In this document: positions 50,345-64,000 of the stretch, piece by piece
How the letters are laid out: every line of letters begins with the position of its first letter
Position numbering within the stretch: the stretch's first letter is position 1
From: Syntrophobacterales bacterium
GTDB taxonomy: Bacteria > Desulfobacterota > Syntrophobacteria > Syntrophobacterales > Thermodesulforhabdaceae
Direction of reading: 5' to 3'
Length of the DNA: 64,000 nt
NCBI GenBank assembly: GCA_026417655.1
Contig: JAOACS010000008.1
Span: 62,001-126,000 of the forward strand
Translations under genes and position numbers: made by a program
The notes under the pieces: model-generated
What the model was told of the DNA's origin: nothing
The model's database searches: none
What the model saw: only the letters and a program-made list of their open reading frames with translations

Positions 50345-51418
50345 GTGGCATTTTTTTATTTTGAAAGAGGTTCCTTAGGGGTACAGGATAATGGTCTCTT
50401 AGATAAGAGGTCATCGTCGCTACGTTTCAAAAGATATGTTAGGTCGAAAAGGCGGCTTATTCTGTTATTATGCTTCTTAGGAAGCTTAGTTATTTTGGTG
50501 TCACTTTCGGTAGGTGCCTATCGCATACCCTATGGGGAATTGATAGAAGCTCTTTTGGGTATGTCTTCAGGAAAGCAAGCGATTCTTGTATGGAACATTC
50601 GCCTTCCACGCACTGTAGCATCTCTTGTGGTAGGAGCCGGCCTTGCCCTTGCTGGTCTTACCCTTCAGTCACTTCTTAGAAATCCCTTAGCATCCCCCTC
50701 AACTCTGGGAATTAGCCAGGGAGCTGCCTTTGGGGCGGCGGTCTCCGTTGTGGTTTTCAAGTTAAAATATCTTTCAATAACTATATTTGCTTTTGGGGGT
50801 TCCTTCCTTGCCACCATAATTATATTGTTTTTGGGAAAGCTAAAGCGGCTTACACCGGAGTCTATAATACTTTCTGGAGTTGCCCTTTCTTCCCTTTTTT
50901 CGGCGGCTACAGTTCTTATCCAGTATATTGCAAACGAAACTGAGCTTGCAACGATAGTTTTTTGGACCTTCGGTGATGTTTCTCGGTCTAATTGGCAGGA
51001 GATTGGGGTAACCGCTTTTGCAGTTTTTATCGCCCTAGGCTTTGTGTATTTTCGCTCCTGGGATTTTATGGCGATTGAATCCGGTGAGGAATCGGCCAAA
51101 GGTTTAGGAGTCTCTGTAGAACGATTAAGATGGCAAGGAATGGCTCTGGTGGCAATTGTTTCTTCCGTAGCTACAGCCTTTCACGGGGTTATAGCCTTTG
51201 TTGGTTTGATAGCTCCCCATGCAGCAAGACGGCTCTTCGGGTCAAATTATTCCCTTCTTGTTCCTGCTACATCCCTCCTGGGAGCCCTTCTACTCCTTGG
51301 AGCTGACACAGCTGGAAGGGCCATTATAGGATCGGGCGGGCTTCCTGTAGGAGTTATCACATCCTTTATGGGAGCACCTCTTTTTCTCTATCTTTTGATG
51401 AGAGGTTATAGGAGATGA
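50345..51418 (+). CDS. FecCD/BtuC-family metal-chelate ABC permease
   Basis: 357 residues, about 10 membrane helices after a charged N-terminus of about 40 residues. FecCD motifs: WNIRLPRTVASLVVGAGLALAG, NPLASPSTLGISQGA, GVIAFVGLIAPHAARRLFG and GRAIIGSGGLPVGVIT. It moves an iron-siderophore, haem, cobalamin or similar chelate inward. GTG start with AAGGGG. The stop overlaps the ATPase start by 4 bases. Confidence 0.92.
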   Translation: MAFFYFERGSLGVQDNGLLDKRSSSLRFKRYVRSKRRLILLLCFLGSLVILVSLSVGAYRIPYGELIEALLGMSSGKQAILVWNIRLPRTVASLVVGAGLALAGLTLQSLLRNPLASPSTLGISQGAAFGAAVSVVVFKLKYLSITIFAFGGSFLATIIILFLGKLKRLTPESIILSGVALSSLFSAATVLIQYIANETELATIVFWTFGDVSRSNWQEIGVTAFAVFIALGFVYFRSWDFMAIESGEESAKGLGVSVERLRWQGMALVAIVSSVATAFHGVIAFVGLIAPHAARRLFGSNYSLLVPATSLLGALLLLGADTAGRAIIGSGGLPVGVITSFMGAPLFLYLLMRGYRR

Positions 51419-52260
51419 TTATCAAGGTTGAAGACATTTATTTCAAATACCCTTCGGGAGGAACTGTTCTTAATGGTATTAGCTTTGAGATCAAAAAGGG
51501 TGAGTGTGTGGCTCTACTTGGCGTAAATGGTGCTGGGAAATCAACTCTACTTAAATGCATAAATGCTATACTTTCTCCATATAAGGGAGTGGTTTACATT
51601 AACGGCGAAGGTATATCTTCTTGGGGACGAAGACGTATAGCTCAACACATCGCCTATGTTCCTCAGAGATCTCAGGACTCGGATTTAACAGTATTTGAGA
51701 TGATAGCCCTTGGTAGAAAGCCTTATATAGACTGGGCTCTAAGTGAAGAGGACTACCAGATTATCGACGATGTAATAACCAGTCTTGGTTTGCAAAATTT
51801 TACTTTGAAAAGAGTAAGCGAACTTAGTGGGGGAGAGTTTCAAAAGGTAATGATAGGACGAGCCCTTGCTCAAACGCCCGATGTGTTTCTTATGGATGAA
51901 CCGACTAACCATCTCGATATAAAAAATCAACTCGATGTAATGAGAACTATCCGTAAAATAACCAAGAGTAGAATCCCCTCGGTTGCAACTATTGTTTGTC
52001 TTCACGATATAAATCTTGCCCTACGGTTTGCGGATAGGTTGCTTTTTTTAAAGGATGGCCTCATCTGGTCTATTGTTACACCTGAGGAGCTAGATCCTAA
52101 AATTGTCTTTAATGTCTATGGTGTTCCTGTGAGTATAGTTAAGTCTAAAGGCTACAACGTGGTAGTACCAGTCGACGAGGAGCATTATAATGAAGAAAGG
52201 AATTATCCTGCCCATACTTTGCGTAGCCATTATTTCCGTGGGACTGGACCTCGCCCATAG
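51415..52260 (+). CDS. Metal-chelate ABC transporter ATP-binding protein
   Basis: 281 residues. Walker A LLGVNGAGKSTLLKC, signature LSGGEFQKVMIGRALAQTP, Walker B VFLMDEPTNHLD, and switch histidine in CLHDINLALRFADR. Residues after 255 run 71 bases into the next gene, longer than usual for this family. Partner of the FecCD permease. Confidence 0.93.
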   Translation: MIIKVEDIYFKYPSGGTVLNGISFEIKKGECVALLGVNGAGKSTLLKCINAILSPYKGVVYINGEGISSWGRRRIAQHIAYVPQRSQDSDLTVFEMIALGRKPYIDWALSEEDYQIIDDVITSLGLQNFTLKRVSELSGGEFQKVMIGRALAQTPDVFLMDEPTNHLDIKNQLDVMRTIRKITKSRIPSVATIVCLHDINLALRFADRLLFLKDGLIWSIVTPEELDPKIVFNVYGVPVSIVKSKGYNVVVPVDEEHYNEERNYPAHTLRSHYFRGTGPRP

Positions 52261-53296
52261 CGAGACGGAAGATAAGATAGGGGCCATTGATGGTGTTGGA
52301 AGAAAGGTCGAAGTTAGTAAGGGCGGGGTAAAAAGGCTTATATGCCTTGGTCCTGGTTCGCTAAGGCTTATAAGCTATCTTGGTGTGGTAGATCGAGTTG
52401 TAGGGGTAGAAGATCTAGAAAAACGGTTTACTGGGGGAAGACCCTACCGGCTAGCTTATCCAGAACTTGCTAATCTTCCTTCCATAGGACCGGGAGGACC
52501 TGAAAGTATAAATAGAAAACCCAATATGGAGGCGATCTTAGCCGTTTCTCCGGACATAATTTTTGTTACCTATATGGATGCATCCCTTGCCGACGAGGTT
52601 CAGCGGCTTCTTAGTATTCCGGTTTTTGTTATTTCCTATGGCCGCTTCGCTACCTTTGATAATTCAATCTACAATTCTTTAAAGTCTGCAGGTAAAATTC
52701 TGGGTATGGAGAGGAGAGCAGAAGAAATAATTGAGTTTATCGAAAGTGTGAAGAGAGACCTGAATGGCCGCACAATAGATATACCCATCGATAAAAAACC
52801 AAGAGTCTATGTTGGTGGAATCGGTTATAGAGGATCCCACGGGATTGAAAGCACAGAACAGCACTATTTACCTCTTGAGTGGACAAACTCTATAAACTTA
52901 GCGAACGAAATAGAAGCGAAAATAGGCTCTCATGTCTTCAGTGATAAGGAAACAATTCTTAAACTGAATCCCGACGTTATTTTTATTGACGGAGGAGGAC
53001 TTGAATTGGTTCGTCGGGATTACCAGAAAAGACCGGATTTTTATAAAAACCTTAAGGCAGTTCAAGATGGCGCCATCTATGTCCTTTTCCCCTTTAATTT
53101 TTACGCTACCAATGTGGAAACTGTGCTGATTGATGCCTACGTTGTAGGAAAAATCCTTTACCCCGATAGGTTCAAGGATATAGACCTGGAATCAAAGGCC
53201 AAAGAGATTTATAGATTCTTTTTGGGAAAGGATGTCTATGGTGCCATGAAGGAACTTTATGGGGAGCCGGGAAGAAAGATAGATTTTGAAAAATAG
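52190..53296 (+). CDS. Metal-chelate ABC transporter substrate-binding protein
   Basis: 368 residues. Signal peptide (1-25, KKGIILPILCVAIISVGLDL) and a class III periplasmic binding fold. The chain carries YVGGIGYRGSHGIESTEQHY, typical of a branch seen in methanogens and Desulfobacterota, not of known siderophore binders. The ligand is unknown. GAGGAG lies 8 bases before ATG 52190. Confidence 0.9.
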   Translation: MKKGIILPILCVAIISVGLDLAHSETEDKIGAIDGVGRKVEVSKGGVKRLICLGPGSLRLISYLGVVDRVVGVEDLEKRFTGGRPYRLAYPELANLPSIGPGGPESINRKPNMEAILAVSPDIIFVTYMDASLADEVQRLLSIPVFVISYGRFATFDNSIYNSLKSAGKILGMERRAEEIIEFIESVKRDLNGRTIDIPIDKKPRVYVGGIGYRGSHGIESTEQHYLPLEWTNSINLANEIEAKIGSHVFSDKETILKLNPDVIFIDGGGLELVRRDYQKRPDFYKNLKAVQDGAIYVLFPFNFYATNVETVLIDAYVVGKILYPDRFKDIDLESKAKEIYRFFLGKDVYGAMKELYGEPGRKIDFEK

Positions 53297-53313
53297 TATT
53301 CATGGAGGTAGCC

Positions 53314-53931
53314 ATGGACCGTGAAGAACTAAGAAAATACGATAGACTGGAAGAGTGTGTTGCCTTTCATGGGCATATATGTCCTGGTTTGGTGATTGGT
53401 TACAGGGCATCCAAGCTAGGAATGGAAAAACTAAATGAAGTAAGGGCAGAGGACGAAGAGCTTGTCGCTATTGTGGAAAATGATGCCTGTTTTGTGGACG
53501 CTGTCCAAGTATTGACAGGGTGCACCTTTGGTAAAGGGAATCTGATTTACAAGGATTACGGTAAGATGGCCATGACTCTTGCAAGCAGAAGGACGGGAAA
53601 GGGCTTCAGGATAATTTTAAAGGAGAGAAGCTTTAGATCTAGTGACCATAAGGAGCATTTTGAACTTATTCATAAGGTGATAAACGACCAAGCCACGGAT
53701 GAGGAGAAAAGGCGATTTTGGAAACTTCATGAGGAACGTAGTAGACGACTTCTTGAGACCAAAACCGAGGAGCTTTTCGATGTGAAGGAATCCGATATAG
53801 AGCTTCCTCCCAAGGCCCGTATTTTTCCATCGGAGCCCTGCGCTGTGTGTGGAGAGGCAACAATGAAGACAAAAATGGTAGAAGTAGAGGGGAGGTTGAT
53901 TTGTAAAGCCTGTTTAGAAGCGAGTAAGTAG
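53314..53931 (+). CDS. FmdE-like protein with C-terminal zinc ribbon
   Basis: About 205 residues. FmdE domain (FHGHICPGLVIGYRASKLG, VENDACFVDAVQVLTGCTFGKGNL) near residues 18-110, then a helical linker and CAVCGEATMKTKMVEVEGRLICKACLEAS, a zinc-ribbon end. FmdE proteins in non-methanogens occur with molybdenum/tungsten or metal-chelate transport; their function is not settled. I choose ATG 53314 (GGAGG 5 bases upstream). It is the last gene of the ABC operon. Confidence 0.87.
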   Translation: MDREELRKYDRLEECVAFHGHICPGLVIGYRASKLGMEKLNEVRAEDEELVAIVENDACFVDAVQVLTGCTFGKGNLIYKDYGKMAMTLASRRTGKGFRIILKERSFRSSDHKEHFELIHKVINDQATDEEKRRFWKLHEERSRRLLETKTEELFDVKESDIELPPKARIFPSEPCAVCGEATMKTKMVEVEGRLICKACLEASK

Positions 53932-54009: not shown

Positions 54010-55572
54010 CTAGGCTAATCCAACAATAGGAAGGATTATCATTAAACCTATCCAGATCAAAAATCCTCCAAGCAGATCGTATAATACCCCAGCCCTAATC
54101 ATTTTTATGATGGGAACCATCCCTGATCCGTATACAATAGCGTTTGGTGGGGTAGAGACTGGAAGCATAAATCCCCAGCTAGCACCAAGGGTAGCTCCTA
54201 TAGCAGGGGGCACGGGGTTTACACCTGCCGCCTGGGCAAGGGATATAATAACTGGAACTACCATGTTAGCCGATGCGGTATTAGATGATGTTTCACTCAC
54301 AAGAATACCTATAAATATCGCCCCAAGGGTTATTCCCCAAGTTGATGTAGCTCCAGTAAGATTTAAAAGCTTTGAGCCAATGACGTCTGCAAGTTTTAGC
54401 TCGAACATGAGATTTCCAAGAGTAATACCTCCACCAAAGAGGAGCAATGTACCCCAGTCAATATTTACAGCCTGTCGCCAAGTAATTGTAAACTCACGTT
54501 CTTTCCAGTTTACGGGCAATATGAAAAGAAGAACCGCTCCAATGAGGGCCGCTACACTCTCTGGAATGATCCTATTATAGGCTTTAGATATGGGAGCATC
54601 GGTTCCGTATAGGATGGCCAGCACTCCTGGAATGAGCCATAGACTTACTGTTACCAAAAAGGCTACCATCACGTTTTTTTGTCCTCTGGTCCATGGACCC
54701 AGTAAAGCCCTTTCTCGGGCAATATATTCCTGTCCGCCCTCAATTTTTGATACTTCAGGTTTATGTAGGAAATACATCAAGACGAAGAGAAGAATGGAAA
54801 GTAAGATGAGTAGTGGAACAGCGAAGCTCATCCATTTGAAAAACGGTATTTTTACGTTACAAAATTTCTCGATCATGGCAATGCCGATAAGATTTGGTGG
54901 AGTCCCCACAGGGGTCCCAATCCCTCCAGTGGAGGCACCGTAGGCAGCCATTAACATCATGGCTGTACCAAAACGGAGTTTTGTAGGTTCGACGACGCTT
55001 TTCGTCTTCTGTTGGACAATGTCTGCGGTGGCGTAGACTATACCCAAAGCAATAGGAAACATCATAGCAGTCGTCGCTGTATTACTTATCCACATCGATA
55101 TGAAGCCACATATTACACCAAAGGCAAGGAGGATTCTCCCAGTGCTATTTCCAATCCATCTCATGGACATGATGCCATAGGCGAAACGTTTGTCTAATCC
55201 ATGAATGGACATAGCTTCCGCTATTATAAATCCTCCGAAGAAGAGATAAATAATCGGGTCCGCAAAGGGTGCGAAAACCTTTTTAGCGTCTGCTACACCA
55301 AAGACCACACAAAGTATTGCTCCCATAACAGCGCTTATTGGTAAGGGGACCGGCTCGGTGATCCACCATATTGCTACCCAGGTGATGATTGAGGCGAGGA
55401 TATGGGCCTTTGGGCTAAGAGAGGGCATGGGAATTAAATATATGATGAGGGCTCCAAGGGGGCCTAAAAAAAGTCCTATAGTGTTTCTCCATCTTTCGAA
55501 ACGCTCTTCATGTTCTGATAAAACTTCCCTAATCTCCCTTTGTCCTTTCTGTAATACTTCGCTCGTTGCCAT
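54010..55572 (-). CDS. SLC13/DASS family Na+-coupled anion symporter
   Basis: About 520 residues, 11-12 membrane helices. Both SNT sodium/anion-site signatures are visible: WISNTATTAMMFPIAL in the first half and SETSSNTASANMVVPVII in the second, plus a TPPNAIVYGSG end region. Substrates of the family are dicarboxylates, citrate or sulfate. The ATG at 55572 with AAGGAG 5 bases upstream is preferred over an in-frame start at 55647 that would overlap the CBS gene. It lies 25 bases after the CBS gene, likely one operon with oadGB. Confidence 0.9.
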   Translation of the reverse strand: MATSEVLQKGQREIREVLSEHEERFERWRNTIGLFLGPLGALIIYLIPMPSLSPKAHILASIITWVAIWWITEPVPLPISAVMGAILCVVFGVADAKKVFAPFADPIIYLFFGGFIIAEAMSIHGLDKRFAYGIMSMRWIGNSTGRILLAFGVICGFISMWISNTATTAMMFPIALGIVYATADIVQQKTKSVVEPTKLRFGTAMMLMAAYGASTGGIGTPVGTPPNLIGIAMIEKFCNVKIPFFKWMSFAVPLLILLSILLFVLMYFLHKPEVSKIEGGQEYIARERALLGPWTRGQKNVMVAFLVTVSLWLIPGVLAILYGTDAPISKAYNRIIPESVAALIGAVLLFILPVNWKEREFTITWRQAVNIDWGTLLLFGGGITLGNLMFELKLADVIGSKLLNLTGATSTWGITLGAIFIGILVSETSSNTASANMVVPVIISLAQAAGVNPVPPAIGATLGASWGFMLPVSTPPNAIVYGSGMVPIIKMIRAGVLYDLLGGFLIWIGLMIILPIVGLA

Positions 55573-55597
55573 GGTTACTCCTTCCCTTGCACAAAAA

Positions 55598-56080
55598 TTA
55601 TCCGCTAAGGCGTTTGGCTTCCTTCCAAACAAGGCCAAAAAGATCACTCAGTCGAATGACACCTATAGTGGCCTCTCCTGAAGTGACAACCATGTGAAGG
55701 TATGAGCCAGAAATTATCCTAGAGAACACTTCTTCGAGGGGGGTATCTTCCGAAACATATTCTTTTTCTGAGAATCGATACATAATGTTCTTAGCCGGTA
55801 TTGCGTGTATCATTTCGGCTATCCGATACATCATATCTCTCCACGATGGATACGACTTTTCGGTGAAAGTTTCTCCACCTAGAGCGTTGACTACTTCGAT
55901 TGGGCGTATGCAGCCTACTACTTTGAATTTACTATCGTGGACGAATACAACTCGTGGTCTGTAATCAAGGGACGAACGTTGACGAGTTGCTTCTAGCATC
56001 ATTAGGGCATCGTAGATTGTTCTATCCTCCGCAATTTTTGCACACTTAGCCAGGGGTATCATTAGATCACTTGCCTTCAT
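55598..56080 (-). CDS. Paired CBS-domain protein
   Basis: 160 residues. Two CBS motifs: DLMIPLAKCAKIAEDRTI with VVFVHDSKFKVVGCI in the first, and MYRFSEKEYVSEDTPLEEV to SGEATIGVIRLSDLFG in the second. Usually binds adenine nucleotides and regulates transporters or enzymes. The placement between oadB and SLC13 suggests an energy-status switch on the uptake system (inference). Strong AAGGAG upstream. Confidence 0.88.
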   Translation of the reverse strand: MKASDLMIPLAKCAKIAEDRTIYDALMMLEATRQRSSLDYRPRVVFVHDSKFKVVGCIRPIEVVNALGGETFTEKSYPSWRDMMYRIAEMIHAIPAKNIMYRFSEKEYVSEDTPLEEVFSRIISGSYLHMVVTSGEATIGVIRLSDLFGLVWKEAKRLSG

Positions 56081-56179: not shown

Positions 56180-57322
56180 TTACCCTAAACCCATCCCCTT
56201 AAAAACTGAGAGCATAATAGCTGCGGCCATAACAGAACCGATCTGACCTCCTGTGTTTGCTCCCATAGCATGCATTAAAAGCCAATTGTTGGTGTCATAA
56301 CGCCTTCCCTCCGTCTGGACTACTCTTGCGGCCATGGGATAGGCTGAGATACCGGCGGCCCCAATCAGGGGATTGATTTTGCCTTTGGTAAGAAAACACA
56401 TTAGCTTCCCAAAGAGGACCCCCGTTACTGTGTCAAGGCAGATAGCTACCAGCCCCAGGGCGAGAACAAGCAGTGTTTGTGGTTTTAGGAAGGTGTTTCC
56501 TTCCATTGTGCCACCAATAGCTAATCCCAAAAGAAGGGTGACTATATTGGCGATTTCGTTTTCTGAGGCCTTTGTAAGTCGAGCTACCACACCGGATTCC
56601 CTCATAAGATTACCCAACATCAGCATCCCCATAAGAGGCGTTCCCATAGGAGCAATAAGACAACAGGCAAGGGTCACAACAATTGGAAAGAGAAGCTTGG
56701 TCCTTTTGGATACGCTCTTGTGGGATGGGTATTCCATTCTGATAAGCTTTTCCCGTTTGGTTGTAAGGATGCGCATAATGGGAGGTTGAATTAGAGGCAC
56801 GAGGGCCATGTAGGAGTAGGCAGCCACGGAAACAGCTCCAAGAAGATGGGGCGCATACTTAGATGTTACATAAATCGATGTAGGACCATCACATGCTCCT
56901 ATAATGCCTATAGAGAGGGCTTCCAGGAGATCAAACCCTAAAGCAATAGCGATAAGAAATGTTAGAAATATTCCAAACTGGCCTGCCGCACCCAAAAGAA
57001 GGATTCTTGGGTTTTCCAAAAGAGGGGTAAAGTCTGTCATAGCGCCGATCCCGATGAAAATAAGACAGGGGAAAACCTCGTTGGCGATCCCAAAATTGTA
57101 AAACTGCCTTAAAAGTCCCTCTTGACCCATAAGATCTGCCAAAGGGATGTTTACTAAAATGGCACCAAACCCAATAGGAACAAGAAGAAGAGGCTCGTAT
57201 CCCTTTTTTATACCTAGATAAAGTAGCAAACATCCAACCGCGATCATGACAGCGTTTTGAATAGTAAGGGCACCAATACCTGCGGTGAGAGCTGAGATGC
57301 TAGAAAGAATAATCTCTCCCAT
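56180..57322 (-). CDS. oadB: Sodium-pumping decarboxylase beta subunit (OadB/GcdB/MmdB-like)
   Basis: 380 residues, 9-10 membrane helices. Family motifs: IGACDGPTSIYVTS near residue 140, MLGNLMRESGVVARLT near 230, INPLIGAAGISAYPMAARVVQ near 318 and HAMGANTGGQIGSVMAA near 351. It couples biotin-carboxyl decarboxylation to Na+ export. No alpha (carboxyltransferase) or biotin carrier subunit lies in the window, so its carboxyl substrate (oxaloacetate, methylmalonyl-CoA or glutaconyl-CoA) is unassigned. The ATG overlaps the oadG stop (TAATG). Confidence 0.93.
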   Translation of the reverse strand: MGEIILSSISALTAGIGALTIQNAVMIAVGCLLLYLGIKKGYEPLLLVPIGFGAILVNIPLADLMGQEGLLRQFYNFGIANEVFPCLIFIGIGAMTDFTPLLENPRILLLGAAGQFGIFLTFLIAIALGFDLLEALSIGIIGACDGPTSIYVTSKYAPHLLGAVSVAAYSYMALVPLIQPPIMRILTTKREKLIRMEYPSHKSVSKRTKLLFPIVVTLACCLIAPMGTPLMGMLMLGNLMRESGVVARLTKASENEIANIVTLLLGLAIGGTMEGNTFLKPQTLLVLALGLVAICLDTVTGVLFGKLMCFLTKGKINPLIGAAGISAYPMAARVVQTEGRRYDTNNWLLMHAMGANTGGQIGSVMAAAIMLSVFKGMGLG

Positions 57323-57471
57323 TATGATCTCTCCTTTCTGTTTCCGCCCGACTCTTCCTCTTCACGGTAGGGAAATATTTTCTTTAAAATGTCCATGATT
57401 ATGGTGAGTATCCACAAGGTGAAAAGGGTACCCCCCATCCCTACAAGAGCGATTACAAGACCTTTTTCCAC
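57322..57471 (-). CDS. oadG: Sodium-pump decarboxylase gamma subunit, very short
   Basis: 49 residues, too short for most gene finders. GTG start at 57471 with AGGGGAGGG 5 bases upstream. The chain is EKGLVIALVGMGGTLFTLWI, one membrane helix, then ILKKIFPYREEEESGG and a charged tail. This matches the N-terminal helix of OadG. Its stop overlaps oadB by TAATG, so translation is coupled. The acidic/basic tail replaces the longer zinc-binding C-terminus of enterobacterial OadG. Confidence 0.82.
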   Translation of the reverse strand: MEKGLVIALVGMGGTLFTLWILTIIMDILKKIFPYREEEESGGNRKERS

Positions 57472-57531
57472 AAAGACCCTCCCCTGAGCTCAGTTGAATT
57501 TCCTAAAAAGACTGGCCGGGACATATTTTTA

Positions 57532-57546
57532 GCAAGAGCTATGCCT
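57532..57546 (-). promoter_or_regulatory. Sigma-54 promoter of oadGB
   Basis: On the minus strand AGGCATAGCTCTTGC: -24 GG and -12 GC exactly 10 bases apart, with GGCA and TTGC boxes. Predicted start near 57520, about 50 bases before the oadG GTG. Confidence 0.8.
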
Positions 57547-57644
57547 GACCCCGACTATATGGTATCCCTTCAATCTGTTACAAGAAGATATTGCAGGGGT
57601 TATAGTTAAGCTACAAGGGCTTTTAAGGTAATTTGCTGATTGGG

Positions 57645-57660
57645 TGGCGAAAATTCGCCA
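57645..57660. promoter_or_regulatory. Palindromic upstream activator site 1
   Basis: TGGCGAA-AA-TTCGCCA, perfect 7-base arms. It lies about 99 bases upstream of the oadG sigma-54 -24 element, at a distance typical of enhancer-binding proteins, and 26 bases after the regulator gene stop. Confidence 0.75.
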
Positions 57661-57664
57661 CTAG

Positions 57665-57680
57665 GGCGTCAAATTTCGCC
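57665..57680. promoter_or_regulatory. Palindromic upstream activator site 2
   Basis: GGCGTCAAATTTCGCC, an imperfect version of site 1, 20 bases centre to centre (about two helical turns). Tandem dimer sites on the same face are a classic sigma-54 activator arrangement. Confidence 0.7.
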
Positions 57681-57685
57681 AGTCC

Positions 57686-59104
57686 TTAAGGCTTTTTAGA
57701 AGGGGGTGGTACTATGGGGGATATGTTATACTTTTCAATCTTATATCGGAGCGTTCCCCTTGGGATTCCTAACAGTTTGGCTGCCTGAGAGATATTTCCC
57801 TGAACCATAGCTAATGCCTTTTCAATAATAACAGAAGTGAACCTGTCTATCATCTCCTCCAGATTAATCCCTTCGGGAGGTATGTTTATAGGAAATGATA
57901 GAGAATTGTCCGATAGGGTATCAATACCATGGGCTATCTCTAGGGGAAGATGGTGTTTTTCTACGATCCTATCATCATGCATTATGCAAATTCTCTCGAT
58001 GGTATGGGCCAACTCTCGGACATTTCCAGGCCATGGGTAGGTTAAAAGAAGGTGTTTTGCCTCGAGGGAAAATCCCTGAAAGTGCCGATTATATTTTTTA
58101 TTATATTCGGCAAGAAAATGCTTCGACAGGGCGATAATGTCCTCAGGACGCTCTCTAAGAGGTGGTATATGAATTGGAATAGCATTTAATCGAAAATAAA
58201 GATCTTCTCTGAAGTTCTTCTCCGCTACGGCCCTTTTAAGGTCACGATTGGTAGCGGCTATTATCCTCACTTCCACATCATGATAGTTGGTGCTCCCAAT
58301 TCTTCGGATGCGTTTATCCTCAATAACTCTTAAAAGCTTTGCTTGAAGTCCTAGGGCAAGTTCTCCTATTTCATCAAGGAATATAGTTCCACCATTGGCT
58401 GCTTCGAAGAGGCCAATCTTTCTTTCTCTAGCTCCAGTAAAGGCTCCCCTTTCATAACCAAACAGTTCGCTCTCCAGGAGTTGTTCTGGAAGGGCTGCGC
58501 AATTTACCTCTATGAAGGGTCTTTCGGAACGGGGGCTAAGAGCATGAATGGTTCTTGCGAAAAGATCCTTTCCAGTTCCGGTTTCTCCTGTTATTAGAAC
58601 AGTTGTGTCGGAGAGGGTAGCAACTTTTTTTAGCTTTACAAGAAGCTCTTGCATTGATGGACTTTCAGCTATTAGAGGTTTGCCCTTTAATATATCCTTG
58701 TAGTGTGATCTAAAGGCTTTAACTTCCTTCCTAAGCCGCTGTGTTTCAAGGGCAAGTTTTACAATAAGCTTTATTACATCGGCCTTGAAGGGCTTTTTAA
58801 TGTAATCGTAGGCACCTAGTTTAAGAGCTTCAACAGCGGACTCTACTGATGCATATCCGGTTATAATCACAACTATCAGATCTGGATCCTCTTCTTTAAG
58901 TTTTTTGAGAACCTCAATCCCCGGGATATCAGATAGCTTAAGATCTAGCAAAACCAGATCGACGGATGAAGACTTAACCGTTGCTATCGCTTCGCTCCCC
59001 GTTTTGGCCACAATACTTTCGTAACCCTCTTCCCTGATTATCCGTTGGAGGTTTTCACAGATAAAATCTTCGTCATCGACTATCAAAATAGTATCTCCAG
59101 TCAT
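57686..59104 (-). CDS. NtrC-family sigma-54-dependent response regulator
   Basis: 472 residues: receiver with phosphoacceptor Asp54 (VLLDLKLSDIPG), AAA+ domain with Walker A GETGTGKDLFARTIHAL, GAFTGARER sigma-54 contact loop and FLDEIGELALGLQAKLLRV, and a Fis-type HTH (ISQAAKLLGIPRGTLRYKIEKY). It should bind the palindromes at 57645-57680 and open the oadGB sigma-54 promoter. It overlaps the kinase gene stop by 4 bases, so the two are one operon and a cognate pair. Confidence 0.95.
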   Translation of the reverse strand: MTGDTILIVDDEDFICENLQRIIREEGYESIVAKTGSEAIATVKSSSVDLVLLDLKLSDIPGIEVLKKLKEEDPDLIVVIITGYASVESAVEALKLGAYDYIKKPFKADVIKLIVKLALETQRLRKEVKAFRSHYKDILKGKPLIAESPSMQELLVKLKKVATLSDTTVLITGETGTGKDLFARTIHALSPRSERPFIEVNCAALPEQLLESELFGYERGAFTGARERKIGLFEAANGGTIFLDEIGELALGLQAKLLRVIEDKRIRRIGSTNYHDVEVRIIAATNRDLKRAVAEKNFREDLYFRLNAIPIHIPPLRERPEDIIALSKHFLAEYNKKYNRHFQGFSLEAKHLLLTYPWPGNVRELAHTIERICIMHDDRIVEKHHLPLEIAHGIDTLSDNSLSFPINIPPEGINLEEMIDRFTSVIIEKALAMVQGNISQAAKLLGIPRGTLRYKIEKYNISPIVPPPSKKP

Positions 59105-62100
59105 AGGCTGTCACCTTCTTTAGCTATTTTGCTCTGTTGTGTAGGAAAATCTATGACGAAGGTCGTGCCCTTCCCTAGGTTACTAGATACAGCAACTCTT
59201 CCACCGTGTTCGACTACAATACTGTGGACTATAGCAAGTCCTAGCCCGGATCCACGAGGACGGCGACTAAAGAAGGGATCGAAAATGTAGGGAATATCTT
59301 CTGGAGAAATACCTTCTCCTGTGTCAGAAATTGTAACGCGAATGGATTCAGGAGCCTTTGAAACCCCTATCGTTAGAATTCCACCATTTGGCATAGCTTG
59401 GATAGCGTTTATAAAAAGGTTGAGAAATACCTGCTTCATTTTCTCTCGATCGGCCTGGATGGGGGGTATGTTATCATCTATCTCCGTTGTTATCCTTACG
59501 TGATGATTTTTTGCAAGTTTTCTCATAAAGAGTAAAGTGTCCGCAATAATAGAGGAAAGAGATGTTGGTTCAAGCCTAAGCTCCCTGGAGGGTGTAGCAA
59601 AGTCTAGGAGGCTGTTTATAAGGTTTTCTAGTCGCTCGATCTCTTCAAGAGCCCTTTGAATAAGTTCTCGTTCTTCACGATTGTCGTGAAGGTGATCATG
59701 GAGATCATCGAGCATAAGAGAAATTCCTGTAAGAGGATTTCTCATCTCGTGGGCTATACCAGCAGCCAGGACTCCGAGGCTTGCTAGTCTATCGGTTCTT
59801 CTCATGTGTTCTTCCATTTGTTTTCTCTTAGTGATATCACGGCAAGATATGAGAAAAAGTTTTTCATCCCCCTCGGTCTTATCAATGGAAGAGTAGGAAT
59901 ATTCGATTATTCTTTCCTTTCCATCTGGAAATATTAGATTATGTTCAACAACCGATCTAGCAAGGTGGATAGAATGGATGGCCTCTTCGATAATTTTCTT
60001 CCATGATGGGAAATTTATAAACACTTGGCTATACTGTTTCCCTTCGGCATCTTGAATTCCAAATAATTTTTCCGCATAGGGATTAAACCACTTTATTTTG
60101 CCGTCCTCTCCTAAGACAATGATACCTATGGGAACATGTAATAGAATGGATGATATAAAATTCTTCTCACCAATAAGCCCTCGATAAAGTTCAGAGCGTT
60201 CAATTGCACGGGCAGTGTCATTGGCTAAGATTTCCAGGGCTTCAACTTCTATTTTGCTAAAGGAAGAGTATCTTTCCAACCGCTCAGCCCCAATAACACC
60301 GATTACTTGGTTCCCTGTTCTTAGGGGTGTCCAGACGAAGCCCTTGCTTTCCCACTCTTTGACTATCCTTGTATCTAACTCTGTTACCTCTTCTAGGAAA
60401 ATCGTCTTCCCATGCCGGAAGGCTCTAGTAATACTACAATCCTCCCTATCAATATGAAATGATAAGGACTTAGCGCGCCTTTCATGCTCTTCGGAAAACC
60501 CAAATGTCCCATGACAGACCAATTGCCTACTCGAGGGATCAAAGAGATACAGTATAGCACGATCATATCCTAGGCCCTTTACAGAGGTTTTTAGCACCTC
60601 TTCCAGCACCCGATCCCTTTCATAAATAGTGCTAAGGAGCTGACTAAGATAGTGAATGTTTTTTATAATCCATACCTGCTTCTCAAGTTCATAGGAGTAT
60701 TGTTCGAGAGATTTTTTTGATGAGGCCAGCTCCTTCAAGGAGTTTTCTAAATGGTTGCGATATTGGTGGATCTCCTTTGCCATCTTAGCAAGGCTTGTTG
60801 AAAGAGTTTCTATCTCATTCCCTGTTTTTAATTCAATATCTTCTGGTACCTTACCTTCAGCAATCTCCATAGCCTTACGGGAAAGATGCAATATGGGTTT
60901 GGTTATTGCCCGGGCGAGTAGAAAGGCAAACAAAATAGATGCCAATATAGTTATACCCATAACTAAAAAGTTTTGAATCTTTGTGCGACGTATAATACTG
61001 GTTATGGCCTTTTCTGTTCTAGATATGGGCGCCTTAAAGGTAGTGGTGTCTACTCCAATGGTGATACCTCCAAATATACCGTAGCGATCGTAGGGTTTTT
61101 GATAGTAAAAGATAGGAGCATAGGCCATTACTCGGGGTATCCCTCCAACGTTAAATGTATTTGTTACACCTGAACGACCTTTTCTTACCTCGGAAGCTAT
61201 AAATGGATAATTGGGATTAATTATACCGGCGTAGTCAAGGTTAAATGGCACCTTTCCAAGGAGGAGATTTTCCCTGGTGTAATATGGAGCAGTAGGATCG
61301 AAGGGACTTCCATCCGGTCTAAGTCCTCTTATGTCGCAAAACTTGGGATGGGAGATAATCCACCCTTCATCATCAAACATAAAGGCATAATTACCGCTTT
61401 TGTAGGACGGGAAGACAACGAAGCGTTCCTCCGTTGGTAGGATATGCATTGTAAATTCCATAAGATGCCTATGATCGAGGGAAAGCACAATCACTCCTTC
61501 GGGAGAATCAGCCCCCCCTTCACATCGAATGGCGAAACGGACTATACCTTCGTATTTTTTACCTTCAACGGCCATCTCAAGCTCAGGAGCTCCCTGAAGC
61601 TGTTCTTCTAAAGAGACGAACCATCCTGTTACGTGGGATACGTAGATTTTACCTTTGGGTAATTTCATGACTTCGTTAAAGTAAGTCTCAGATTTATAGG
61701 TAGTGTTTTCCGGTTTACTCACGTCACGAAGAAGGTTTTGAGGAACCGGTTCGCCGTCAACTATCTTTATAAGTTCCTTTCCTGAGAGGTCGATGAAGGC
61801 TATTTCTCGGTATAGGGGTAGTTCTTTTCTTATTTCTATCGGGTGATCATTTGTACCATCTCTAGTCCATATGGTCTTTTTGTGAATTGAGTAGAATTTC
61901 TGAAGGACGTCTAAACGTTTTGGCATCATACAGAGTGTGTGGGCATCAACCTCTATGGATTGGAGAAATTCACTAACCCTGTTCGCAAGTTCTACAGCTC
62001 TTACCTCGAGAGATTCCCTACTCTTTTGTTCGAGCTGGATAGAGCTCTTTTCTACGGCTATCTTTTCTAGCTCATGAAGATTTGCAAGATGCATCATTCC

Positions 62101-62172
62101 AAGGACAATAGGTGGCATAAGAGAAAGTATTAGAAGGAATAGGGTGAATTTTTTGGCTATAGAAATACGCAT
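59101..62172 (-). CDS. Cache-HAMP-GAF-PAS sensor histidine kinase
   Basis: About 1023 residues. Helices near residues 7-30 and 388-410 bracket an extracytoplasmic Cache sensor of about 350 residues. Then HAMP (ARAITKPILHLSRKA), GAF (about 515-650), PAS (about 660-790), HisKA with His808 in GIAHEMRNPLTG, and ATPase motifs NLFINAIQAMP, DTGEGI, GSGLGLAIVHSIV. I choose ATG 62172, since the in-frame ATG at 62187 lies 1 base after its AGGAG. Coupled to the sigma-54 regulator gene. Confidence 0.92.
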   Translation of the reverse strand: MRISIAKKFTLFLLILSLMPPIVLGMMHLANLHELEKIAVEKSSIQLEQKSRESLEVRAVELANRVSEFLQSIEVDAHTLCMMPKRLDVLQKFYSIHKKTIWTRDGTNDHPIEIRKELPLYREIAFIDLSGKELIKIVDGEPVPQNLLRDVSKPENTTYKSETYFNEVMKLPKGKIYVSHVTGWFVSLEEQLQGAPELEMAVEGKKYEGIVRFAIRCEGGADSPEGVIVLSLDHRHLMEFTMHILPTEERFVVFPSYKSGNYAFMFDDEGWIISHPKFCDIRGLRPDGSPFDPTAPYYTRENLLLGKVPFNLDYAGIINPNYPFIASEVRKGRSGVTNTFNVGGIPRVMAYAPIFYYQKPYDRYGIFGGITIGVDTTTFKAPISRTEKAITSIIRRTKIQNFLVMGITILASILFAFLLARAITKPILHLSRKAMEIAEGKVPEDIELKTGNEIETLSTSLAKMAKEIHQYRNHLENSLKELASSKKSLEQYSYELEKQVWIIKNIHYLSQLLSTIYERDRVLEEVLKTSVKGLGYDRAILYLFDPSSRQLVCHGTFGFSEEHERRAKSLSFHIDREDCSITRAFRHGKTIFLEEVTELDTRIVKEWESKGFVWTPLRTGNQVIGVIGAERLERYSSFSKIEVEALEILANDTARAIERSELYRGLIGEKNFISSILLHVPIGIIVLGEDGKIKWFNPYAEKLFGIQDAEGKQYSQVFINFPSWKKIIEEAIHSIHLARSVVEHNLIFPDGKERIIEYSYSSIDKTEGDEKLFLISCRDITKRKQMEEHMRRTDRLASLGVLAAGIAHEMRNPLTGISLMLDDLHDHLHDNREERELIQRALEEIERLENLINSLLDFATPSRELRLEPTSLSSIIADTLLFMRKLAKNHHVRITTEIDDNIPPIQADREKMKQVFLNLFINAIQAMPNGGILTIGVSKAPESIRVTISDTGEGISPEDIPYIFDPFFSRRPRGSGLGLAIVHSIVVEHGGRVAVSSNLGKGTTFVIDFPTQQSKIAKEGDSL

Positions 62173-62271
62173 TCCTTCCCTCAGCATACTCCTTTTTGTT
62201 TTCTAGTCTAAATTAGCAACAGGGTCTTCATCATTCAAGGATAGATAGGGCTTTAAACTAGAGTTTCCACG

Positions 62272-62300: not shown

Positions 62301-62373
62301 AATTCCACTGATTCGGGGGAGGTTTCCAGGCTACCGGAGGGTTTTATTTTAGCGATTGAAGGGGGTTACCGGA

Positions 62374-63543
62374 ATGAGTAGAAAAAAAACCTATGAGGAA
62401 ATCAATGAAAAGATCCGGCAAGGTAAAGTTATTGTTGTTACAGCAGAGGAGATGACGGAGATAGTAAGAAAAAAGGGCGAAGCTGAAGCCTTCCGTATGG
62501 TTGATGTGGTGACCACGGGAACCTTTGGTATAATGTGTTCCTCCGGAGCTTTTATAAACTTTGGCCATACCAATCCCCCAATAAAGGCTCACAGGGTGTG
62601 GCTAAACGATGTTCCAGCCTATGCAGGTCTTGCGGCAGTTGATATTTACATTGGGGCAACCGAACCGACTGTAAATGATCCCCTGAATAAGGTTCATCCT
62701 GGTCTTTTCGAATACGGAGGGGGACATGTTATTCATGATCTTGTTAGCGGAAAGCCTGTAAGACTTAAGGCCGAAGCCTATGGGACCGATTGCTATCCAA
62801 ATAAGTTTATTGAAAAGACCGTCTATCTTAAAGATTTTGTCAATGCGATCCTATGTAACCCTCGAAATGCTTACCAGAACTATAATTGTGCCGTGAACTT
62901 ATCGTCTAAGACGCTCTATACCTACATGGGAGTTCTGAAGCCGAAACTTGGAAATGCTAATTACTCCACCTCTGGAGCCCTAAGCCCTCTTATCAACGAC
63001 CCTTACTATAGAACAATAGGGATAGGTACTAGAATTTTCCTTGGTGGAGCTCAAGGGTATGTAGTCTGGCATGGGACTCAGCATAACCCTAGGATTCCTA
63101 GAAACGAAAGGGGGATTCCTAGGGCGCCTGCAGGAACGTTAATGGTTGTGGGGGACTTAAAAAAAATGAGTCCCCGATGGCTTGTGGGAATCAGCATGTT
63201 AGGTTACGGCTGTTCACTGGCGGTGGGGATAGGGCTCGCAATACCAGTTCTCGACGAAGAGATGGCCTATTATACCGGTGTAGGGGATGAGGATATTATA
63301 GTCCCCGTTAGAGATTATAGCTTTACAGAGACCGAACCCCTTGGAGAGGTTTCATATGCTGAGCTCAAAGGGGGAGTGATAAAGATAAGGGGAAGAGAAG
63401 TCCCTACCGTCCCTCTATCAAGCTACGTAAGAGCTAAAGAAATAGCCGAGACTTTGAAGAAATGGATTAAGGAAGGGGAGTTTCTCCTTGGCAAGCCCCA
63501 GGAACTTCTCCCAGGAGCTCCTGTTGAGTCAAATGGAGATTAA
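62374..63543 (+). CDS. Homocysteine biosynthesis protein, DUF39 family
   Basis: About 389 residues. Conserved DUF39 strings: VVTTGTFGIMCSSGAFINFGH, LNDVPAYAGLAAVDIYIGATEP, GGHVIHDLVSGK, GALSPLINDPYYRTIGIGTRIFLGG. Genetic work in Methanosarcina links this family to homocysteine synthesis from aspartate semialdehyde. ATG 62374 has GGGGG 8 bases upstream. Here it precedes a LarE-like sulfur transferase rather than a NIL-domain ferredoxin, which I do not see in the window. Confidence 0.9.
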   Translation: MSRKKTYEEINEKIRQGKVIVVTAEEMTEIVRKKGEAEAFRMVDVVTTGTFGIMCSSGAFINFGHTNPPIKAHRVWLNDVPAYAGLAAVDIYIGATEPTVNDPLNKVHPGLFEYGGGHVIHDLVSGKPVRLKAEAYGTDCYPNKFIEKTVYLKDFVNAILCNPRNAYQNYNCAVNLSSKTLYTYMGVLKPKLGNANYSTSGALSPLINDPYYRTIGIGTRIFLGGAQGYVVWHGTQHNPRIPRNERGIPRAPAGTLMVVGDLKKMSPRWLVGISMLGYGCSLAVGIGLAIPVLDEEMAYYTGVGDEDIIVPVRDYSFTETEPLGEVSYAELKGGVIKIRGREVPTVPLSSYVRAKEIAETLKKWIKEGEFLLGKPQELLPGAPVESNGD

Positions 63544-64000
63544 TAAAAAGGAAAAAGCTCTTTCTGAATATATCACCCCCTTTTCCTTTCCAGCTATCGC
63601 CTTCTCAGGTGGAAGGGATAGTGGATTTCTTGCTTGGTTTGTCAGAAACAAGATGAAAAAGGGGGCCCTAATATTAAGTGCCGATCACGAGCTTACCCCT
63701 CCCGGTGAAAGCGAATACCGACTGAGGATTGCTAAGACCTATGGCTGGCTTGATATGGAGAATGTTTTTGTAAGCCTCCTAGACCTACCAGAAATTAACT
63801 TTAATACACAGGATAGATGCTATGCCTGTAAAAGGCGTCTCATGAGTGTCCTTATAGACGTGGCACGCTCAAGAGGTTGTGATGTTCTCTTTGACGGAAC
63901 AACTCTGGATGAATTAAAAAAATATCGCCCAGGACTGAGGGCCCTCGATGAGTTAGGCGTAAAAAGCCCCCTTATTAAGACAGGCTGGACAAAGGAGGAA
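63524..64000 (+). CDS. LarE-like ATP-dependent sulfur transferase, 3' end beyond window
   Basis: Open frame to the end of the window (about 159 residues). PP-loop AFSGGRDSGFLAWFV with the unusual R-D-S-G in place of V-D-S-S, RCYACKRRLM with the C-x2-C pair, LFDGTTLDELKKYRPGLRAL and SPLIKTGWTKEE match LarE and its sulfur-transferring relatives. Start is TTG 63524 (AGGAG 6 bases upstream) or ATG 63533. It overlaps the DUF39 stop, so coupled translation and a shared sulfur-transfer role are likely. Stop and C-terminal cysteines are not visible. Confidence 0.85.
   Translation, partial: MSQMEINKKEKALSEYITPFSFPAIAFSGGRDSGFLAWFVRNKMKKGALILSADHELTPPGESEYRLRIAKTYGWLDMENVFVSLLDLPEINFNTQDRCYACKRRLMSVLIDVARSRGCDVLFDGTTLDELKKYRPGLRALDELGVKSPLIKTGWTKEE

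Follow-up and report, generated by a model that had tools for sequence, protein, structure and literature searches.

A putative sigma-54 two-component module for organic-acid use preceding sodium-pumping decarboxylase and transporter genes in a Syntrophobacterales bacterium

The overall design of the locus described here is already known from the atoSC-atoDAEB and dctBD-dctA systems. In Escherichia coli, the AtoS kinase and the AtoC regulator are encoded in tandem and followed by a short gap, a -24/-12 element and the target operon atoDAEB, and two tandem inverted sites are located in the gap just after the regulator stop codon. Both the AtoC sites and the sigma-54 dependence have been experimentally proven in this organism (PMC3118216). 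The same layout is found in the window, that is, the whole 64-kb stretch of Syntrophobacterales DNA that was analysed, and AtoC is among the named regulators closest to the one encoded there (43% identity, compared with 42% for ZraR and 35.5% for Sinorhizobium meliloti DctD). However, the window regulator scores 467 bits against the AtoC equivalog NF008469, under its cut-off of 714, and the AtoC operator is TGCAGAAATTTGCACA-like and differs from that of the window. The targets are also different, since AtoC acts on genes for a CoA transferase and for short-chain fatty acids and the candidate targets in the window are oadG, oadB, CBS and DASS genes, and the AtoS model covers only the PAS-kinase half of the window kinase (residues 667-1020).

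The rhizobial DctB-DctD/dctA system shares the design of a sigma-54 two-component activator with tandem sites, its target being a C4-dicarboxylate transporter. The DctD operator, quoted as TGTGCGgaaatCCGCACA in PMC11077940, resembles the window operator TGGCGaaaattCGCCA, although the window regulator is not a close homologue of DctD (its identity to DctD falls under the values for AtoC and ZraR) and the two systems have different transporter and decarboxylase genes. Geobacter sulfurreducens, whose fumarate/succinate exchanger gene dcuB is RpoN-dependent (PMC2725144), independently exemplifies sigma-54 control of C4-dicarboxylate transport. Among sulfate reducers, the enhancer-binding protein DVU2827 of Desulfovibrio vulgaris has been predicted to control a C4-dicarboxylate transporter that is replaced in relatives by an MHS-type MFS protein (PMC4641369). 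The DVU2827 target operon also has pyruvate formate-lyase, unlike that of the window. In Klebsiella, the two-component system CitA-CitB responds to citrate and controls citS-oadGAB. As is predicted for the window, a Na+-coupled carboxylate carrier and a Na+-pumping oxaloacetate decarboxylase are thereby placed under two-component control, but CitB is not known to be a sigma-54 activator and the Klebsiella operon includes OadA, which the window operon lacks. For the window, comparative evidence points, with a probability of about 0.85, to a kinase-regulator module that acts through sigma-54 in the use of organic acids and would control oadG-oadB-CBS-DASS.

All genes of the module are on the minus strand. 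Its sensor histidine kinase (59101-62187; 1028 aa) comprises, according to Pfam, a periplasmic dCache region (dCache_1, scoring below the Pfam cut-off), HAMP, GAF, PAS, HisKA and HATPase_c domains, and carries the H-box HEMRNPL at residue 813 (H813). Its gene overlaps by 4 bp (ATGA) that of an NtrC-type response regulator (472 aa; 57686-59104), in which Pfam identifies a receiver with D54, an AAA+ domain with the GAFTGA motif and a Fis-type HTH with the recognition helix PRGTLRYK, the set of domains of a group I (two-component) bEBP. The phosphorelay and GAFTGA motifs are complete in the pair. After a gap of 214 bases follows an OadG-related small subunit (49 aa; 57322-57471; NF040909, 3.2e-13), whose GTG start is preceded by the ribosome-binding site GGGGAGGG. 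This gamma subunit candidate is above the NF040909 cut-off and just under that of PF04277. Then come an OadB-type Na+-transporting decarboxylase beta subunit (380 aa; 56180-57322; PF03977, 4e-155; TIGR01109, 4.5e-135), a CBS-domain protein (160 aa; 55598-56080; PF00571) and a DASS-family sodium-coupled anion symporter of at most 545 aa (54010-55647; TIGR00785, 1.1e-84; PF00939), whose true start is probably an ATG within that frame. On one side of the module, divergent from the kinase, 62356-64000 holds two genes, one for homocysteine biosynthesis (HcyBio) and one that is ATP-pyrophosphatase-like. On the other, 50345-53931 holds ABC permease, ATPase and binding-protein genes and then a gene for a zinc-finger protein with an FmdE domain, which looks like an operon for metal or metal-cofactor uptake.

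In the direction of oadG, the gap contains site 2 (57681-57666), site 1 (57660-57645) and a -24/-12 element (57546-57531). Predicted operator site 1 (57645-57660, minus strand) is the perfect 16-bp palindrome TGGCGAAAATTCGCCA (strand reading TGGCGAATTTTCGCCA), made of the core GGCGAAAATTCGCC at 57646-57659 extended by a flanking T and A. Predicted site 2 (57666-57681, minus strand), GCGTCAAATTTCGCCA, is degenerate, with one good half-site and a poor second half, and its matrix score of 6.5 ranks 17 in the window. With zero mismatches, GGCGAANNTTCGCC has a single match in the 64-kb window and likewise a single one in the complete genome of 2.3 Mb, and the consensus TGGCGRNWWNYCGCCA has one perfect genome match, site 1, versus none when the consensus is reversed as a control. 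If up to two mismatches are allowed, the consensus gives 36 genome matches versus 38 for the reversed control, which makes the weaker sites uninformative. A wide regulon in the genome was consequently rejected and the claim limited to the present locus. A matrix built solely from the sites of relatives and applied to the 64-kb window gives site 1 a score of 25.5 of a maximum of 25.8, the next best place reaching 9.6, a result to be taken as support and not as an independent test because the training sites were chosen by a consensus derived partly from the window. Matches to TGGCGGTAATCCGCCA that fall within the oadB paralogues found in other genera seem to reflect conservation of the coding sequence and were not counted as operators.

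The predicted sigma-54 promoter element (57531-57546, minus strand) is AGGCATAGCTCTTGCT, or AGGCAT-N5-TTGCT, with the -24 GG at 57545-57544 and the -12 GC at 57533-57532. It lies about 60 bases before the oadG GTG start, with transcription predicted to begin near 57520. The -24 part reads AGGCAT where the consensus is TGGCAC. Such a pattern is not unusual alone (22 matches in the window at up to two mismatches versus 21 expected), and the window element is the best in the tested 219-bp stretch, being equalled by about 0.003 of shuffles when scored with matrix weights taken from general knowledge of the consensus. The genome also has an rpoN gene. The first-pass annotation had described a sigma-54 promoter and two palindromes 20 bases apart, about 100 bases upstream, next to a matching kinase and NtrC-type regulator. 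Place and order of these elements are confirmed; the two sites are 21 bp apart, and the distance from site 1 down to the -24 element is 98 bp, which bears out the figure of about 100 bases.

Gene order, operator conservation, the tie between operator and recognition helix, and promoter position were all computed from the comparison with relatives. The six-gene order kinase-regulator-gap-oadG-oadB-CBS-DASS is kept in G001, from the same genus, and in G034 and G037, from another family of the same order; the DASS symporter is 77-80% identical in these genomes and the OadG-like subunit shares 74% identity with its G001 counterpart. In G001 (L138:4960-8080 and L138:9947-11088), the kinase gene and oadB are each split into two overlapping frames, through either frameshift errors in the assembly or gene decay. 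The CBS-DASS genes of G010 are transcribed divergently from the kinase gene, and the palindromes are found in the gap between them. The position of the CBS gene is kept in G001, G034, G037 and G010. Two to three palindrome copies, imperfect ones included, are present in five of five gaps (window, G001, G034, G037 and G010), and the sequence around them displays no obvious similarity by eye among the five. Site pairs are separated by 20-22 bp (two helical turns) or, in Seleniivibrio, by 41 bp (four turns), the second site being poor in the window genome (G000) and in G001.

The operator also follows the DNA-binding part of the regulator. Regulators 50-71% identical to that of the window share the recognition helix (I/V/L)PR(G/E/T)TLRYK, and those at about 40-45% identity mostly carry VERSNLHRKI or a similar helix. 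When palindromes with up to one mismatch were counted in the 700-base flanks of the kinase-regulator pair, with expectations from shuffles, the 34 loci with a TLRYK-type helix had 23 palindromes versus 1.88 expected and the 37 other-helix loci had 5 versus 1.78 expected, none of them with the A/T core; these counts are not fully independent, as some loci come from the same genus. Removal of the window and the four motif-defining loci from the TLRYK-type group leaves 15 versus about 1.6 expected. In L141, the two one-mismatch sites of this count fall in the CBS gene, and the plausible intergenic pair has two mismatches in each site. By this comparison, the tandem upstream sites appear to be specific for the regulator.

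In most of the loci, sigma-54-like elements are likewise found beyond the operators. They read TTGCACATATTTTGCT in G001, TTGCACGCTGCTTGCA in G037 and TCGCACGCGGCTTGCA in G034, the first G of the -24 GG being T or C in all three. An element located about 94-250 bp past the operator and before transporter or decarboxylase genes occurs in G000, G001, G034, G037, G021 and G016, and further loci with this spacing are G023, G005, L006, L008, L024 and L025. The promoter is weak in G010 (GTGTACGGTATTTGCA; 0.25 of shuffles as good) and in G032 (0.11), and a sigma-54 element was looked for and not found in the G004, L020, L022 and L023 loci. Conserved gene order, palindromes kept in diverged gaps, a recognition helix that tracks them, downstream sigma-54 elements and the presence of rpoN together support the mechanism put forward in the first-pass annotation. 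Its candidate operator GGCGAA-N2-TTCGCC matches perfectly only once in the genome and appears to recur with the recognition helix of the regulator in distant taxa, across genus and phylum borders. Control of oadGB gains support from the comparison, with the amendment that the operon is larger (oadG-oadB-CBS-DASS) and does not include oadA. The genome scan it had suggested for defining the regulon returned one perfect match, the present locus, with weaker matches at control level.

The palindromes start 5 bases past the regulator stop codon and an RNA hairpin is possible (z -2.6), features that would suit a terminator ending the kinase-regulator operon instead of an operator. Nevertheless, any perfect short palindrome can form a hairpin, the gap has neither a T-run nor a terminator-like site, and in G032, G021, G016, G023 and G004 the palindromes are upstream of the kinase, in divergent gaps without gene ends. 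The lack of a T-run and the same palindromes preceding divergent kinase genes led to the rejection of a terminator, which is extremely improbable. Only marginally less improbable is binding of the palindromes by some other regulator, for instance a repressor of the operon, with the NtrC-type protein acting elsewhere. One-component repressors often use perfect palindromes as well, but no further regulator gene is conserved in the module and the palindrome follows the NtrC-type recognition helix across many genera as the downstream genes change. In addition, enhancer-binding proteins typically have paired sites, separated by two helical turns, that precede a sigma-54 element.

A survey of the targets in relatives reveals that the transporter families change and that kinase, regulator and operator remain constant. 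In the clear cases of G021 and G016, operator and sigma-54 element precede an MHS-like MFS gene and then a gene for malic enzyme. An operator-preceded MFS gene is also found in G023, where one more gene follows before the contig ends, and the operator of G032 stands before an MHS-like MFS gene. The MFS protein appears to belong to the MHS subfamily by our own reading of its sequence, the profile search giving MFS_1. In G005 and G019, an operator with one mismatch and a sigma-54 element lie before a cNMP-domain gene, past which OadB and TRAP-TAXI genes are encoded; in L025 they precede porin genes and then TRAP-TAXI, and in L006 and L008 they precede DASS genes. OadB also adjoins the kinase-regulator pair in L007, L148 and L149. 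In Melioribacteraceae, close relatives of the kinase-regulator pair are followed by a porin gene and then a LIV-ABC operon (L024:9371-15962) or by a branched-chain-type (LIV) ABC uptake operon (L026); in L024 these genes are preceded by paired operators together with a good sigma-54 element. The common theme of the controlled genes is carboxylate uptake.

This association with unrelated transporters (DASS, an MHS-type MFS next to malic enzyme, TRAP-TAXI alongside OadB) argues for a C4-dicarboxylate signal, most likely malate, fumarate or succinate, as judged from gene context; malic enzyme and oxaloacetate decarboxylase are both routes from C4 acids to pyruvate. The ligand, which the first-pass annotation had left unspecified, is in this way narrowed to a probable class. 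An alignment of the sensor region from 30 homologues contains long, nearly invariant stretches, which suggests one well-defined ligand. The predicted model of the sensor (pLDDT 89) has a dCache fold, with histidine kinase and chemoreceptor dCache domains as nearest structures (Z about 19), and since this fold is general and its members in the comparison library bind ligands as varied as amino acids, amines and lactate, among others, it leaves the choice of ligand undecided. The module and operator could thus be as described and the signal be another, such as lactate, acetate or a tricarboxylate. The breadth of ligands accepted by the dCache fold, lactate among them, and the LIV-ABC and porin genes next to the pair in Melioribacteraceae would agree with this, the LIV-type genes of L024 and L026 giving no clear pointer to dicarboxylates. 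We consider a signal of this kind rather unlikely, as malic enzyme, OadB with the genomic OadA-mdh, and the DASS, MHS and TRAP-TAXI transporters best share C4-dicarboxylate chemistry.

With a C4-dicarboxylate as the favoured signal, the dCache kinase would sense an external carboxylate and phosphorylate the NtrC-type regulator, which would bind the operator pair at 57645-57681, one strong and one weak site two helical turns apart. The regulator would then form a ring and, through DNA looping, open the sigma-54 RNA polymerase at 57531-57546, allowing transcription of oadG-oadB-CBS-DASS. The DASS protein may import the acid together with Na+, malate would be oxidised to oxaloacetate, and OadA (encoded beside mdh), OadG and OadB would decarboxylate oxaloacetate and pump Na+ back out. 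We infer binding, phosphotransfer, activation, ligand and enzyme partnership from these comparisons. Sodium-pumping decarboxylase and organic-acid transporter are very probably switched on by the regulator via the predicted sites and promoter.

The alpha subunit gene oadA was looked for in the operon and is absent from it. Elsewhere in the genome (G000:C11), a gene for an OadA-like protein of 669 aa with the biotin motif EAMKMEN directly precedes a malate dehydrogenase-like gene (mdh). Both parts of an OAD-type Na+-transporting decarboxylase are accordingly encoded, a beta subunit recognised by PF03977 and TIGR01109 and an alpha subunit with carboxyltransferase and biotin carrier. We infer that this OadA partners OadG-OadB of the operon, a partnership that would close a sodium cycle with the DASS symporter. 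As OadB paralogues also serve other decarboxylases, 'oad' is the likeliest, unproven label. A second OadB in the same genome (L156:3817-10096, G000:C2) adjoins a Carboxyl_trans (GcdA/MmdA-like) gene and others resembling those for acyl-CoA dehydrogenase and CoA transferase. It probably belongs to another enzyme, glutaconyl-CoA or a similar Na+-pumping decarboxylase.

The regulator family, its binding site and the likely C4-dicarboxylic acid signal seem undescribed. The literature search returned no paper with the exact operator string, and none in the literature searched dealt with control of the oxaloacetate decarboxylase of sulfate reducers by a two-component system acting through sigma-54. 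It is an evenly balanced question whether the pair founds an undescribed two-component family, with a highly conserved dCache sensor, the PR(G/E/T)TLRYK helix and the operator TGGCG-N6-CGCCA, in which operator and probably a C4-dicarboxylate signal have been kept across several phyla and unrelated transporters swapped. The analysis provides an uncharacterised enhancer-binding protein, whose family occurs in many sulfate reducers and relatives, with an operator, a promoter, a target operon and a ligand class that can be tested. The locus suggests how such anaerobes may link organic-acid uptake to a closed sodium cycle, and a common operator would let annotators assign a substrate class to unrelated transporters.

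Other arrangements exist among the relatives. In Seleniivibrio (L020:7914-15007 and L022:7912-15000), the operator pair 41 bp apart stands before genes for a second histidine kinase and a phosphonate-type binding protein, and the kinase preceding the regulator is without dCache similarity. In the Desulfuromonadales loci (L009-L021), a variant palindrome, about TGGCCAWWWTNGGCCA or TGGCGAAAATTCACCA, is located between the kinase and regulator genes.
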